From Gordonibacter urolithinfaciens (lineage in GTDB: Bacteria; Actinomycetota; Coriobacteriia; Coriobacteriales; Eggerthellaceae): 64,000 nt of DNA. Shown in pieces: positions 8,745 through 48,210 of the stretch. The DNA is taken from contig NZ_LT900217.1 of assembly GCF_900199375.1 (NCBI RefSeq), forward strand, positions 2,790,001 to 2,854,000, read 5' to 3'. The position numbers were made by a program, and so were the translations under genes. Below the pieces are notes generated by a model. The model was not told where the DNA came from, ran no database searches, and saw only the letters and a list, made by a program, of their open reading frames with translations. Every line of letters starts with the position of its first letter. The stretch's first letter is position 1.

Positions 8745-8945
8745 AGGGGACGTTTTTCCATGAGGTTGATCGACGCGTTGCGTCGGAAACTCGCTAGCTG
8801 ATGCGAGTGAGACGGCGAGTCGTGGCTCGCGTTCTTTCTGTGCACGCCCCGAGGGATGGTCCAGTGCCTCGGGGTGTACCTGCAACGGAAAAAAGAGAAC
8901 CGCAAACGACGCCTCGCCGCCGCCGTGGAGATTCTTGGAAGATGC

Positions 8946-8978
8946 CCATAAATGTTGCAAATTGAGTAGCAAATATGG
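8946..8978. promoter_or_regulatory. AT-rich dyad upstream of ahpC
   Basis: An interrupted inverted repeat (CCATA...TTGC, ten bases, GCAA...TATGG) stands in an AT-rich patch 90-120 bp before the ahpC start. It could be an operator or part of the promoter of the peroxiredoxin gene. It does not match a classical PerR or OxyR site. Confidence 0.3.
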
Positions 8979-9068
8979 GAAAGTAAACCAAGGAAAACAA
9001 GTAAGGCGAGCCGCCACGTGTGCGAACGGCCGCGTGCCGCCCGCCGAACGAAGCGAAGGAGCGATACC

Positions 9069-9632
9069 ATGTCCATGATCAACCGCGAGATCGACGATTT
9101 CTCCGTCCAGGCGTTCCAGGACGACGGCTTCGCCACCGTCACGAAGGACGACGTGCTGGGCCACTGGAGCGTGTTCTTCTTCTACCCGGCCGACTTCACG
9201 TTCGTGTGCCCCACGGAGCTTGAGGACCTGGCCGCCCTGTACGACCAGTTCAAAGCCGCCGACTGCGAGATCTACTCCGTGTCGTGCGACACGCATTTTG
9301 CGCACAAGGCCTGGCACGACGCGTCCGAGAACATCAAGAGCCTGCCGTACCCGATGCTGGCCGACCCCACGCACAGGCTGGCCGACATCTTCGACGTGTA
9401 CATCGAGGAGGAGGGCGTGGCCGAGCGCGGCAGCTTCATCGTGAACCCCGAGGGCCGCATCGTGTGCTACGAGGTGAACGCCGGGAACATCGGCCGCAAC
9501 GCCGCCGAGCTTTTGCGCCGCGTGCAGGCGAGCCAGTTCGTGGCCGAGCACGGCGATTCGGTGTGCCCCGCGCGCTGGGTGCCGGGCTCCGAGGTGCTGC
9601 ACCCGGGCATCGACCTGGTGGGCAAGCTGTAG
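9069..9632 (+). CDS. ahpC: Peroxiredoxin AhpC
   Basis: A 187-residue typical 2-Cys peroxiredoxin. The peroxidatic Cys47 is in FYPADFTFVCPTELED and the resolving Cys166 in SVCPARW near the C terminus; Arg in NPEGRIV completes the active site. Length and motifs match AhpC of the enteric/Firmicute type. ATG 9069 has GAAGGAG eight bases upstream. It reduces H2O2, organic peroxides and peroxynitrite in the cytosol. The usual reductase gene ahpF is not next to it, so an unlinked AhpF or thioredoxin-like system must supply electrons. A GC hairpin follows the gene. Confidence 0.97.
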   Translation: MSMINREIDDFSVQAFQDDGFATVTKDDVLGHWSVFFFYPADFTFVCPTELEDLAALYDQFKAADCEIYSVSCDTHFAHKAWHDASENIKSLPYPMLADPTHRLADIFDVYIEEEGVAERGSFIVNPEGRIVCYEVNAGNIGRNAAELLRRVQASQFVAEHGDSVCPARWVPGSEVLHPGIDLVGKL

Positions 9633-43913: not shown

Positions 43914-44774
43914 CTACGCCCCACCGCCCCTTTCGGCGGCGTCCTCCACGTCCACGAGCACCGAGATGTGCAGAAGGTAGTCGTCGGCCGAGTCCGACAT
44001 CAGGTACGAGTTCATGTCCAGCTCGTACAGCGGCCCCCGCATCAGGAAGCCCTCGCGCTCCACGTAGGCCAGCAGCTTCTCGTACGAGCGCTCCACCGTG
44101 CTCGTGCCGCCCTGGTGCAGCACGACCGCGTAGTTGCCCTTCGGCTTGCATTCTACGCGGTCCCCGAGGCACGCGGCGTCGCGGGGCGGCGATATCCAGG
44201 TGACGAGCTTGGTGTAGTAGAACTCGGAGGGGTCGTCCAGATCGGGGATGTCGATGACGCGCCCCAAGGGGAACGTGGCCACGCCCGCCCTGTTGCGGCA
44301 GAAGTCCGAATGCTCGCTCACGGCCTGTGCGTAGGCCTGCTGCGAGCGCTCGCGGCGCACCTCGGTCGTGAGGAACCACGTCTCGTCCCAGTACGACAGC
44401 CGCGGCTGCTCTTTGGGGAACGTCACGGCCCGCTGGGTGAGGTAGCGCATCTTCTCCATCATGCCGATGCGGGCGTCCAGGATGTCGCGCTGCTGCCCCA
44501 TGCGGTCGATGCTCGTCTGGATGCTGTCCAGGAACAGTTGGGTCGTGCGGTTGTCCAGGTACTCCTTGATCTCCTTGGTGGACATGCCCGCGTCCATGAA
44601 GAAGCGCACGACGTCGAACAGGTACAGCTGCTTGAGCGAGTAGTAGCGGTAGCCGTTGCCCCGCACCTCCTTGGGCTTGAGCAGGCCGATCTTGTCGTAG
44701 TGCACCAGAAGCTCCCGGCTGACGTTGCACATCTGGGCGAACTCGCCGGTGGAGAGGAGCAGGGGATGCTGCAT
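43914..44774 (-). CDS. MerR-family regulator with GyrI-like effector domain
   Basis: 286 residues. The N-terminal MerR domain reads LLSTGEFAQMCNVSRELLVHYDKIGLLKP...GYRYYSLKQLYLFDVVRFF, then a coiled dimer helix, then a ~150-residue C-terminal domain of the kind that binds hydrophobic ligands (BmrR/GyrI-like: RVECKPKGNYAVVLHQGG, YVEREGFLMRGPLYEL). ATG 44774 has AAGGAGG eight bases upstream. It faces acs and is upstream-divergent from the macrodomain operon, so either may be a target. The ligand is unknown. Confidence 0.88.
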   Translation of the reverse strand: MQHPLLLSTGEFAQMCNVSRELLVHYDKIGLLKPKEVRGNGYRYYSLKQLYLFDVVRFFMDAGMSTKEIKEYLDNRTTQLFLDSIQTSIDRMGQQRDILDARIGMMEKMRYLTQRAVTFPKEQPRLSYWDETWFLTTEVRRERSQQAYAQAVSEHSDFCRNRAGVATFPLGRVIDIPDLDDPSEFYYTKLVTWISPPRDAACLGDRVECKPKGNYAVVLHQGGTSTVERSYEKLLAYVEREGFLMRGPLYELDMNSYLMSDSADDYLLHISVLVDVEDAAERGGGA

Positions 44775-44989
44775 GGCGACCTCCTTATGCCGCCGGTCGT
44801 CGGAGATCGCTTCGCAGCGGCTCCGGCCGGGCGGCTCGTCCGGGCGGCTCGGGGGCGCGCCCGGGCTTGCCATTTCGGGGATTCTACCATGCGGCGGCGG
44901 CGTCGCGCCTGATGGTCAGGGGAGCGTAGCCGATCCTCCCGCCAGTGCCCGGCAGCGTCCCGTCTGCCGGGCCGGCAGGAACGCGGGCA

Positions 44990-45041: not shown

Positions 45042-45998
45042 ATGGTGCAAGCTAACGTGTCGTGCGCGGCGGGCGGCGCGCGCGGGCGGGACGAGGACGT
45101 GGCGTACCTGGTGCGGTACCTCCGGGAAGAGCGGGGCCTCGTGCAGGCACCTGCCGAGGGCCGGCCCTTCGACGAGGCGTTCGCCGAGTTCCGGGCGCTC
45201 GTCAACACGCGCGAGCCGCGCCCGGCGGACGAGCGGTTCCTGGCGGTGCAGGACCGGCTGCTGCGCGGCCTCATTGCGCAGGCGGGCATCGCGCGCGTCG
45301 CCGAGCTGCCGCCGACGCCGGTCGACGCGCGGCTTTCCGTGTGGCGCGGCGACATAACCACGCTCGAGGCGGACGCCATCGTGAACGCGGCGAACAGCGC
45401 GCTCCTGGGCTGCTGGCTGCCGGGACACCACTGCATCGACAACGCCATCCACACGTTCGCCGGCGTGCAGCTGCGCATGGCGTGCGCCGCGCTCATGGAG
45501 CGGCACGGGCATGCGGAGCCCACCGGCCGCGTGCAGGTCACGGACGCGTACAACCTGCCCGCCCGCTGGGTGCTGCACACGGTGGGCCCCATCGCCGACG
45601 GCGCGCCCACCGAACGGCACCGGCGCGAGCTGGCCTCGTGCTACGAGAGCTGCCTCGAAGCCGCCGCGGCGTGCGGGTGCCGCACGGTCGCCTTCTGCTG
45701 CGTGTCCACCGGCACGTTCGGCTTCCCGCAAAGGGAGGCTGCCGAGATAGCCGTGGGCACGGTGCGCTCTTGGCTCGACCGACATGCCGGGGAGGGCGCG
45801 GATGCCGTCGGCGGCACTCGCGGCGCCGACGGCGGGGCGGCTCGGGGCGCTGCAAGCGGCTCGGGAGCGGCAGGTTCGGCGAACGCTTCCGGCCCAGGCA
45901 GCTCCCCGGAGGCGCCCGGTGCGCCCAGCGGCCTCAAGGTGGTGTTCAACGTGTTCGGCGACGAGGACGAGGCGATCTACCATGACCTGCTCGGCTAG
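45042..45998 (+). CDS. Zinc-dependent macrodomain ADP-ribosyl hydrolase (Zn-Macro)
   Basis: 318 residues. A helical N-terminal region (~75) precedes the macrodomain: VWRGDITTLEADAIVNAANS (ADP-ribose binding), then LLGCWLPGHHCIDNAIH, in which Cys, His and Cys match the zinc loop of Zn-Macro enzymes such as those of Staphylococcus and Streptococcus. Later CVSTGTFGFPQREAAEIA is the diphosphate loop. An Ala/Gly/Ser-rich insert of ~50 residues lies before the last strand (LKVVFNVFGDEDEAIY). Zn-Macros remove ADP-ribose from Asp on protein targets. The gene is first in an operon with a SirTM sirtuin. Confidence 0.92.
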   Translation: MVQANVSCAAGGARGRDEDVAYLVRYLREERGLVQAPAEGRPFDEAFAEFRALVNTREPRPADERFLAVQDRLLRGLIAQAGIARVAELPPTPVDARLSVWRGDITTLEADAIVNAANSALLGCWLPGHHCIDNAIHTFAGVQLRMACAALMERHGHAEPTGRVQVTDAYNLPARWVLHTVGPIADGAPTERHRRELASCYESCLEAAAACGCRTVAFCCVSTGTFGFPQREAAEIAVGTVRSWLDRHAGEGADAVGGTRGADGGAARGAASGSGAAGSANASGPGSSPEAPGAPSGLKVVFNVFGDEDEAIYHDLLG

Positions 45999-46842
45999 CG
46001 GCGGGGACGCGGCGCGCGCCGCCGAGCTGCTCCAAGGCGCGCGCCGCGTGCTCATCGGCGCCGGCGCCGGCCTGTCTGCGGCGGCGGGGCTCTCCTACGG
46101 CGGCGAGCGCTTCGTGCGGAACTTCGCCCCCTTCATCGAGAAGTACGGCATGACCGACATGTACGCGGCGGGCTTCTACCCGTTCCCGTCCGAGGAGGCG
46201 CGCTGGGGCTACTGGGCGCGCCACGTGTGGGTCAACCGCCACGAGCCGGGGGCGCTGCCGCTGTACCGCGCGCTGCGCGCGTTCGCCCGGGAGCGCGACA
46301 GCTTCGTCATCACCACGAACGTGGACGCCCAGTTCGAGAAGGCGGGCTTCCCGCCCGAGCGCCTGTTCGCCACGCAAGGCGACTACGGCCTCTTGCAGTG
46401 CGCCCGCGGCTGCCACGATGCGCTCTACCCGAACCGCGAGCTCGTGGCCCAGATGCTCGCGCGCACCGAGGACTGCCTCGTGCCGTCCGACCTCGTGCCG
46501 GCCTGCCCCGTGTGCGGCGGCCCGATGGCCGTGCACCTGCGCGTGGACGGCCATTTCGTGGAAGACACGGCTTGGCGCGCCGCGCAGGAGCGCTACCGCC
46601 GCTTCGTCGAGGGCATGGTGCGCGAGCCCGCCGTGCTGCTGGAGCTGGGCGTGGGATGGAACACGCCGGGCATCGTCCGCTTCCCGTTCGAGGCGCTGGC
46701 CCGCGCGACGGGAGCCCCGCTCGTGCGCTTGAACTACGATGACGCGCACCTGCCCGAGGGCGTGCCGGGCGTGGGCCTGCAGGGCGACATCGCCGAGCTG
46801 TGGCCGCGGATCGCGAGCGCGGCGGAGAGGGGGAAGCTATGA
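45982..46842 (+). CDS. Macrodomain-linked sirtuin (SirTM), protein ADP-ribosyltransferase
   Basis: 286 residues overlapping the macrodomain gene by 17 bases. The NAD motif GAGAGLSAAAGLSYGGERF and TTNVDAQFEKAG are sirtuin-like. In place of the catalytic His of deacetylases the sequence reads ATQGDYG, with Gln at that position, as described for class M sirtuins. Four cysteines (LQCARGC and ACPVC) form the zinc site. SirTM enzymes ADP-ribosylate a lipoyl-carrier GcvH-L in known operons; no GcvH-L or LplA gene is present here, so the target in this organism is open. Confidence 0.92.
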   Translation: MTCSASGGDAARAAELLQGARRVLIGAGAGLSAAAGLSYGGERFVRNFAPFIEKYGMTDMYAAGFYPFPSEEARWGYWARHVWVNRHEPGALPLYRALRAFARERDSFVITTNVDAQFEKAGFPPERLFATQGDYGLLQCARGCHDALYPNRELVAQMLARTEDCLVPSDLVPACPVCGGPMAVHLRVDGHFVEDTAWRAAQERYRRFVEGMVREPAVLLELGVGWNTPGIVRFPFEALARATGAPLVRLNYDDAHLPEGVPGVGLQGDIAELWPRIASAAERGKL

Positions 46843-47465
46843 CGGTCGACGCAGATTTCTGCCTTCGGTACCTACGCGAGGTGCGCGACGTGGCCTTCGC
46901 CACCGTCGACGAGGACGGCCTGCCCGCCGTGCGCGTCATCGACGTCATGATGGTGGAGGGCGGCCGGCTTTATTTCGTGGCCGCGCGCGGCAAGGCGTTC
47001 TACGGACAGGTCATGCGCACGCGCTATGCGGCGATCGTAGGACAGTCGCCCGGCTACCGCACGTGCCGGCTTCGCGGTCCGGTGGAGCATCCCGACGATC
47101 CGGCCGAGCAGCGCCGGCTCGTCGACCGCGTGTTCGAGCTCAACCCCTCCATGGAAGAGCTCTACCCCGGCGATTCGCGCTACGTGCTGGAGGCGTTCTA
47201 CCTGGAGCGGGGCCAGGGAGAGTTCTTCGACCTGGGCCGCCGCCCCCTTTTCCGCGCACCGTTCGCACTGGGCGGCGGCCCCGTCGCGCGCGAGGGTTTC
47301 GCGGTCTCGGACGCCTGCACCGGCTGCGGCGCCTGCTTCGCGGCTTGTCCACAGGGCTGCATCGCGCCGCGGCCCGACGGCCGCGCCCTCATCGAGCAGC
47401 AGGCGTGCCTCCACTGCGGCCGCTGCCGCGAGGTGTGCCCGTCGGACGCCATCGCGTCGCGGTAG
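46839..47465 (+). CDS. Pyridoxamine-phosphate-oxidase-like flavin domain fused to 2x[4Fe-4S] ferredoxin
   Basis: 208 residues starting at an ATGA overlap with the sirtuin gene. Residues 1-~150 are a PNPOx/split-barrel flavin-binding domain (VAFATVDEDGLPAVRVIDVM, LYFVAARGKAFYGQV). The C-terminal ~55 residues carry two clusters, ACTGCGACFAACPQGC and ACLHCGRCREVCPSDA. It could be a ferredoxin-linked flavin reductase or redox sensor. The tight coupling suggests that it supplies or reports redox state for the ADP-ribosylation pair. Such a partner is not part of the classic SirTM operons that I know. Confidence 0.9.
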   Translation: MTVDADFCLRYLREVRDVAFATVDEDGLPAVRVIDVMMVEGGRLYFVAARGKAFYGQVMRTRYAAIVGQSPGYRTCRLRGPVEHPDDPAEQRRLVDRVFELNPSMEELYPGDSRYVLEAFYLERGQGEFFDLGRRPLFRAPFALGGGPVAREGFAVSDACTGCGACFAACPQGCIAPRPDGRALIEQQACLHCGRCREVCPSDAIASR

Positions 47466-47506: not shown

Positions 47507-47512
47507 GTAGAA
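47507..47512 (+). promoter_or_regulatory. -10 box TAGAAT before the pentapeptide gene
   Basis: TAGAAT lies 27 bp before the start codon. The -35 hexamer is poor (TTCGCT region near 47490). Confidence 0.35.
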
Positions 47513-47538
47513 TGATGGGGACAGAAAGAGGCTGCCCC

Positions 47539-48210
47539 ATGAAGAACTCCCCGATACCCCATCCCGCCAACCCGGCCGTGCCCGGCGAGCTGGCGGCGGT
47601 GGACGCGCTCGCCGCATGGATCGAGCGCGAGATGGACGGCGACCCGCTCGTCGCGCACGTGCTCGTCGCAGGCGACGCAGCCGTGCGCGCCGACTTCTCG
47701 CTGCTCGAGCTGTCCGAATCGCGCGTCGAGGGCTGCCGGTACGCGGCCTGCGACTTCTCCCGCGCCTCGTTCGCCGACGTGGCGTTCTCCGGCTGCGATT
47801 TCTCCAACAGCGATTTCTCCGAGGCGAACTTCACGCGCTGCACGTTCTCCTCGTGCAAGTTCACGGGAGCGAACTTCACCGAGGCCGTGCTCGCCCGCAC
47901 CGAGCTGCGCGACTCCACGCTGTCCTACGCGTCGCTCGCGAAGGCCAGGCTGACCGACGTGCTCGCGCGTGCTGACGATTTCTCGCACGCCGACCTGTCC
48001 GAGGCGCGACTTGCGCGCACCGCCTTCGACGACGTGCGCTTCACGGGAACGAGCTTCTTCCGCACCTCGCTCGCCGGCATCGACTTCACAACCTGCCAGC
48101 TGGCCGATATCGTGCTCTCCGACGCCATGGGCGAGCTCAAGGGCTGCCGCATGGACCTCTACCAGGCCGCCGGCATCGCCCAGCGCCTCGGCGTGGTCAT
48201 CGCCGACTGA
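47539..48210 (+). CDS. Pentapeptide-repeat protein
   Basis: 223 residues. From about residue 60 on, five-residue units of the type A(D/N)F(S/T)x repeat with few breaks: CDFSRASFADVAFSGCDFSN, then SDFSEANFTRCTFSSCKFTG and so on to FTTCQLADIVL. This folds as a right-handed quadrilateral beta-helix. Some members (Qnr, McbG) protect DNA gyrase, but most are uncharacterised. The start at 47539 has AAAGAGG eight bases upstream. It stands alone and converges with the DUF4143 ATPase gene. Confidence 0.93.
   Translation: MKNSPIPHPANPAVPGELAAVDALAAWIEREMDGDPLVAHVLVAGDAAVRADFSLLELSESRVEGCRYAACDFSRASFADVAFSGCDFSNSDFSEANFTRCTFSSCKFTGANFTEAVLARTELRDSTLSYASLAKARLTDVLARADDFSHADLSEARLARTAFDDVRFTGTSFFRTSLAGIDFTTCQLADIVLSDAMGELKGCRMDLYQAAGIAQRLGVVIAD

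Follow-up and report, generated by a model that had tools for sequence, protein, structure and literature searches.

A SirTM/Zn-Macro gene pair with a flavin/iron-sulfur partner gene in Gordonibacter urolithinfaciens

Three overlapping genes at the locus

The locus described here is a three-gene operon in a 64,000-nucleotide stretch (the window) of the Gordonibacter urolithinfaciens genome, which is complete in one contig of 3.29 Mb. On the forward strand it encodes a Zn-Macro protein (45042-45998, 318 residues), a class M sirtuin or SirTM (45982-46842, 286 residues) and a fusion of a PNPOx-like split-barrel flavin domain with a C-terminal 2[4Fe-4S] ferredoxin (46839-47465, 208 residues), the last identified from Pfam and structure. 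The first is the predicted eraser, a protein-ADP-ribose hydrolase, and the second the predicted writer, a mono-ADP-ribosyltransferase. The Zn-Macro and SirTM genes overlap by 17 bp (45982-45998) and the SirTM and fusion genes by ATGA; together, the open frames, the overlaps and the family matches of the operon lie far beyond chance. The original prediction had described these overlaps, and the open reading frames of the forward strand bear them out; each motif that it quoted (the zinc loop CWLPGHHC, the sirtuin site ATQGDYG and two [4Fe-4S] motifs behind the PNPOx domain) was likewise found. A promoter and terminator scan of the operon ends gave nothing useful.

The sirtuin has no Pfam match, and its only sequence matches in the PDB are 5a3a (the SpySirTM structure, SIR2 family, E 3.7e-45) and 8rsn, a macrodomain-SirTM fusion chain. 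The sequence and its alignment place Gln-Gly (Q132-G133 in ATQGDYG; 46375-46380, forward strand) where other sirtuins have the catalytic His-Gly. Mutation of Asn118, Gln137 or Arg192 of SpySirTM abolishes or strongly lowers activity, and alignment to 5a3a and relatives shows that these residues correspond to N113, Q132 and R187 of the window protein. The class motif of the phosphate loop, GVGx[NT]TP, is present as GVGWNTP, the zinc cysteines align as C140, C144, C175 and C178, and a Zn-Macro gene, which the family definition of SirTM calls for, adjoins the sirtuin gene.

The Zn-Macro protein scores 290.3 bits against the NCBIfam model NF003163, 'protein-ADP-ribose hydrolase' (cut-off 272), and its closest solved proteins are the protein-ADP-ribose hydrolases 5kiv, 8rsl and 8rsi (E ~1e-59). 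A Cx4HxC zinc loop is a defining feature of the Zn-Macro family (PMC11490716); here it is GCWLPGHHCIDN (residues 124-131; 45411-45434, forward strand), which reads C124-x4-H129-x-C131 and is invariant in the homologue alignment except at its inner positions. Also retained in the alignment are the Dx3H dyad (D133-x3-H137), the NAAN motif (N115-AAN-118) and the loop-holding residues R51, N55 and N134. The N-terminal extension of the family, a three-helix bundle, appears to be present, with the alignment to 5kiv running from residue 20 and R51 and N55 kept. Ahead of the last, C-terminal strand lies a low-complexity insert of about 45 residues rich in Gly, Ala and Ser (around residues 250-296; 45789-45929, forward strand), which in the alignment is shorter in a genome of the same genus (G001) and absent from relatives outside it. 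Because the catalytic residues are kept in both SirTM and Zn-Macro, writer and eraser both look active.

The third protein exceeds the Pfam cut-off for PNPOx_N (31.0 against 28.1) and for several Fer4 models. In its AlphaFold model (pLDDT 96.6, pTM 0.87) the barrel, residues 1-145, finds its nearest fold in the NimC/NimA structure 2ig6 (Z 16.3, root-mean-square deviation 2.1 over 133 residues), from which we predict a split barrel of the type that binds flavin mononucleotide, and hence flavin binding. The same fold is found in the PNPOx-like flavoproteins of the NimC/NimA and general stress protein 26 types (2ig6, 2hhz, 2fhq), but the window protein differs from these in its added C-terminal 2[4Fe-4S] ferredoxin and in being co-inherited with SirTM. 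The ferredoxin part carries two CxxCxxCxxxCP motifs, CTGCGACFAACP (C160-P171; C160/163/166/170-P) and CLHCGRCREVCP (C190-P201; C190/193/196/200-P), at 47316-47441 on the forward strand, and all eight cysteines are invariant in an alignment of 31 homologues. Conserved acidic residues, E128 among them, are found in the barrel domain. There is no pdxH family (the vitamin B6 oxidase PdxH) among the 25 NCBIfam matches listed for the fusion, and one homologue (locus L131) scores 26.7 bits against the pdxH equivalog, far under its cut-off of 180. In Enterococcus raffinosus (L148, ~8853-9377) a stop ahead of the ferredoxin part leaves the PNPOx domain of the partner gene alone. We found no natural fusion of SirTM or Zn-Macro with the third protein; at L076 a long SirTM frame extended at its C terminus was rejected as such a fusion, as it also runs into unrelated sequence.

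The lipoyl target and the known SirTM systems

To our knowledge, lipoyl GcvH-L is the only established SirTM substrate. The GCV_H profile, which matched in 13 of 14 control genomes, has no match in the complete window genome; nor has LplA-B_cat, the domain of lipoate ligase and LipB. Only two Biotin_lipoyl domains were detected in this genome, and their sites, EAMKM and EAMKL, are of the biotin type. A lipoyl target elsewhere in the genome was considered and ruled out by these missing GCV_H, LplA-B_cat and lipoyl-type domains. Since GcvH, lipoate ligase and a lipoyl domain are all undetectable, it seems clear from the genome that lipoyl GcvH-L is not available to this organism. The same appears to hold for its relatives: full-length GcvH is present in only four of the 58 SirTM-bearing Eggerthellales and missing from the other 54, so that the pair in this order would almost always work without GcvH-L.

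In Staphylococcus aureus and Streptococcus pyogenes, the extended SirTM operon encodes GcvH-L, Zn-Macro, SirTM, LplA2, OYE and LLM; OYE is a binding partner of lipoyl-GcvH-L, and the operon has a connection with oxidative stress (PMC4518038). The window shares with it the overlapping Zn-Macro and SirTM genes, the same catalytic residues and a link to flavin oxidoreductases, but has no GcvH-L, LplA2, OYE or LLM, in a genome without lipoylation machinery. Neither OYE nor LLM is present among the window neighbours checked (acs, MerR, the fusion, a pentapeptide-repeat gene and AAA/DUF4143), and the redox protein is instead a PNPOx-2[4Fe-4S] fusion within the overlapping operon. Minimal SirTM/Zn-Macro operons, such as those of the MorMacro source, Enterococcus faecalis and Treponema pedis (PMC11490716), resemble the window in having no GcvH-L or LplA2; the conserved third gene sets the window apart, as none is described for these lone pairs in the literature searched. 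Targets of SirTM/Zn-Macro systems other than lipoyl GcvH-L have been stated to be unknown (PMC11490716).

The claim that gcvH-L and lplA2 are missing thus holds, and the search of the whole genome found neither linked elsewhere. The further claim, that a redox protein takes their place, is too simple, because the extended operon already has OYE and LLM, the fusion can persist without the pair, and the slot varies. As for the role of the fusion, the original prediction offered target, sensor or electron source, candidate roles between which the sequences do not discriminate. Elsewhere the same slot holds a PNPOx protein without ferredoxin, a nitroreductase, an NAD(P)H-binding SDR-like protein, a quinone-reductase-like ADH or an ACGX peptide/radical-SAM pair, and these alternatives sometimes occur together with the fusion.

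Association of the fusion with SirTM

The fusion is a conserved, non-chance neighbour of the pair across Actinomycetota and Bacillota. Among 200 Lachnospiraceae genomes it is present in 45, and SirTM in 44 of these as against 91 of the 200 overall; among 149 Eggerthellales genomes it is present in 26, with SirTM in 24 of these against 58 overall (Fisher p values, which take no account of shared ancestry, 1.6e-17 and 7e-10). The genes also lie close together, with 31 of 50 fusion genes in Lachnospiraceae (29 of the 31 on the same strand) and 14 of 27 in Eggerthellales within 5 kb of SirTM, making 45 of 77 for both groups, 41 of them on the same strand. Against an expectation of 10 kb in 2.5 Mb, the binomial values for this linkage are 1e-61 and 5e-27. 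When fusion genes near ACGX genes are left out, SirTM is still found in 31 of 32 fusion genomes, and 18 of 35 fusion genes lie near it. The check put forward for a merely accidental neighbour therefore failed to refute the original prediction on this point.

The association was also placed on a tree of 132 SirTM genes, drawn from a scan by SirTM alignment only and from the Eggerthellales loci. The fusion is nearby in 29 of these 132 loci, chosen by SirTM alone, and takes six arrangements: fusion-SirTM-Macro (nine), fusion-Macro-SirTM (eight), fusion-SirTM (six), Macro-SirTM-fusion (three), a divergent fusion (two) and SirTM-fusion (one). Based on the several gene orders and on the 24 changes on the tree, of which well-supported branches force at least 14 gains or losses, the link appears to have been made and lost repeatedly and not inherited as one block. 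Genes at these loci were labelled by tblastn, the automatic choice of open reading frames having missed genes in GC-rich loci (e.g. L039, L040). Two apparent fusion matches, the first at L060 and the second at L076, were excluded from the counts as ferredoxin-nitroreductase proteins. These represent a second ferredoxin-flavin fusion near SirTM, in which an N-terminal 2[4Fe-4S] part is followed by a nitroreductase-like domain (L060:3502-4395, reverse strand; L076:12764-13777, forward strand).

Within the genus, the order in G001 is MerR-HxlR on the reverse strand and an MBL-like protein, Macro, SirTM, fusion and pentapeptide genes on the forward strand; the window locus has MerR and the operon, and no HxlR or MBL-like gene. 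In G002 (L077) the Macro gene is gone and SirTM is cut to its C-terminal half and joined to an intact fusion gene, possibly through an assembly error. G004 has the MerR, fusion and pentapeptide genes and neither Macro nor SirTM, which shows that the fusion serves some purpose independently of the pair. The two flanking genes, both assigned by Pfam, are a MerR/GyrI-like regulator upstream and divergent from the operon (43914-44873, reverse strand) and a pentapeptide-repeat protein just downstream of the fusion (47512-48210, forward strand). The pentapeptide neighbour is retained within the genus (L039, L040, L077, L099) and not outside it. The MerR gene keeps its place in relatives of the genus even without Macro and SirTM (L039, L077, L099), its position being unchanged in G004; it need not regulate the operon, since it stands there where the pair is missing, and its candidacy as a dedicated regulator is doubtful.

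Possible roles of the fusion and the wider neighbourhood

To account for these observations, we lean towards a writer-eraser pair of SirTM and Zn-Macro that works without lipoate and belongs to a stress-response module, in which it is linked in function to a flavin/Fe-S redox protein. SirTM would use NAD+ to mono-ADP-ribosylate an acceptor protein at an acidic or thiol side chain, and Zn-Macro would remove the group again. Given its domain anatomy, the fusion could in principle pass low-potential electrons from the ferredoxin pool to its flavin and from there to a small substrate, be it a nitro compound, a quinone or another electrophile. The modification would most likely gate this redox step, which would normally be off until oxidative or electrophile stress leads the macrodomain to release it, by analogy with what has been proposed for GcvH-L and OYE in S. 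aureus and S. pyogenes. In favour of this reading are the retained catalytic residues, the missing lipoyl target, the linkage and co-occurrence of fusion and SirTM, the DUF24/HxlR and Rrf2 regulators beside many such loci (counts below) and the oxidative-stress connection of the known operon. A lineage without lipoate machinery still keeps the pair, and the recurrent third gene offers a concrete candidate partner for such a switch; with three small soluble proteins, the question of the target is directly testable.

Several observations weigh against this coupling, in addition to the shared ancestry that the co-occurrence values leave aside. About half of the SirTM-bearing Lachnospiraceae (47 of 91) have no fusion, so that other SirTM targets must be common. 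Conversely, the fusion persists without a SirTM match in G004, of the same genus, and in G316, and plasmid pNP174 of the archaeon Methanosphaera sp. ISO3-F5 (L208) carries a fusion with no SirTM among its annotated neighbours. The window is also without the DUF24 regulator that is common in related loci. The fusion of the archaeal plasmid adjoins a helix-turn-helix regulator, radical SAM/SPASM pieces and a zinc dehydrogenase.

The alternatives overlap with the preferred explanation, and the likelihoods that we attach to them are not meant to sum to one. It is quite conceivable, if short of probable, that the genes share no more than a regulon, the pair and the redox genes answering the same redox or electrophile signal through DUF24 or Rrf2 and the fusion never being touched by the enzymes. 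In a survey of 127 SirTM loci, whose counts are lower bounds because genes were called automatically, the commonest neighbours were Zn-Macro (80), DUF24/HxlR (48), Rrf2 (24), the fusion (24) and NAD(P)H-binding SDR-like proteins (20), followed by SPASM radical SAM proteins (11), PNPOx proteins without ferredoxin (10), nitroreductases (8) and zinc-ADH/quinone reductases (7). So varied a set of oxidoreductases fits a stress island better than a single dedicated substrate, and the fusion without the pair in G004 is consistent with this. The DUF24/HxlR gene is often divergent in related loci; an N-terminal cysteine is present in 48 of 59 HxlR proteins in the stretch examined, several others appearing to be cut off by the scan, and it is through such a cysteine that DUF24 regulators respond to quinones, HOCl and diamide (PMC6943732). 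A shared promoter would not, however, require SirTM in nearly all fusion genomes of both groups even when the genes are far apart.

Somewhat less likely, in our view, is that ADP-ribose is placed on the fusion itself, which would then play the part of GcvH-L, with SirTM modifying and Zn-Macro releasing it so as to toggle electron transfer. No other non-regulatory partner accompanies the pair so closely or so often; in the window the fusion gene is translationally coupled to that of SirTM through ATGA, nearly every genome that bears it has SirTM, and the window genome has no lipoyl acceptor to offer. Its eight cysteines are all predicted cluster ligands, and conserved acidic residues such as E128 are present in the barrel; no acceptor residue can be named, however, and those acidic residues are possibly structural. 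SirTM without the fusion is common, and fusions without SirTM exist, both of which count against this role. We would only tentatively extend it to the fusion as a specialised SirTM/Zn-Macro substrate of anaerobes without lipoate, that is, a second class of target, independent of lipoate, whose flavin/Fe-S electron transfer is switched directly by ADP-ribosylation. Modification of the fusion, should it occur, would give gut anaerobes a means of gating low-potential electron flow by reversible ADP-ribosylation.

We think it unlikely that a third molecule is the acceptor and is reduced or read by the fusion; this could be a small carrier, or a peptide rich in cysteine like that of the ACGX system in relatives. 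The radical SAM neighbours (acgM) belong to this NCBIfam system (TIGR04340) and adjoin Cys-Gly-repeat peptides (acgA). On the Roseburia sp. 831b plasmid NZ_CP135163.1 (L207) a single run comprises a helix-turn-helix gene, acgA, acgM, a nitroreductase, a 4Fe-4S protein (the fusion), an ADP-ribose hydrolase, Sir2 and DUF1848, and ACGX genes share operons with SirTM, Zn-Macro, nitroreductase and a fusion subtype at this and seven further loci (L128, L143, L185, L190, L191, L060, L071). SirTM is present in 22 of 25 ACGX-bearing Lachnospiraceae genomes (Fisher 5e-6), and 15 of 26 ACGX genes lie within 5 kb of it. The thiol-rich peptide could be a counterpart of lipoyl GcvH-L, an acceptor that carries a redox-active dithiolane, and cleavage of S-linked ADP-ribose is reported for no hydrolases other than Zn-Macros (PMC11490716). 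The window does not fit this arrangement: TIGR04340 has no match over its cut-off in the genome, the window fusion is of the non-ACGX subtype, and the overlapping genes leave no room between them for a peptide gene.

A chance neighbourhood with no functional tie, for which only the imperfection of the linkage speaks, is highly improbable and was rejected on the linkage and co-occurrence counts and on the recurrence of the association in several gene orders.

Earlier work had established the pair, its enzymology, the lone-pair operons and the oxidoreductase link of the extended operon (PMC4518038, PMC11490716). As far as the searched literature shows, three features are new: the PNPOx-ferredoxin protein as a partner, the statistical association of this protein with SirTM, and the repeated presence of DUF24/Rrf2 and ACGX genes nearby; SirTM joined with HxlR, ferredoxin or PNPOx is not described there, with a passing mention in earlier work possible.

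A writer without a linked eraser is common, since in 22 of the 86 SirTM loci with sufficient flanking sequence, about a quarter, no Zn-Macro lies within 5 kb. Loci of this kind include L040, L041, L042, L047, L051, L053, L059, L063, L067, L073, L082, L090, L114, L117, L130, L133, L142, L143, L145 and L166. SirTM-like genes that diverge from the main group occur in tandem runs of two or three at L048 and L094 and in the Lachnospiraceae contigs G277:C14, G321:C99, G264:C18 and G354:C9. Finally, a family of about 265 residues without a Pfam or NCBIfam match, labelled 'MBL-like' from its appearance only, recurs beside SirTM (L039:6031-6864, L042:15115-16023, L051:6837-7634, and at L073, L077, L095 and L188).

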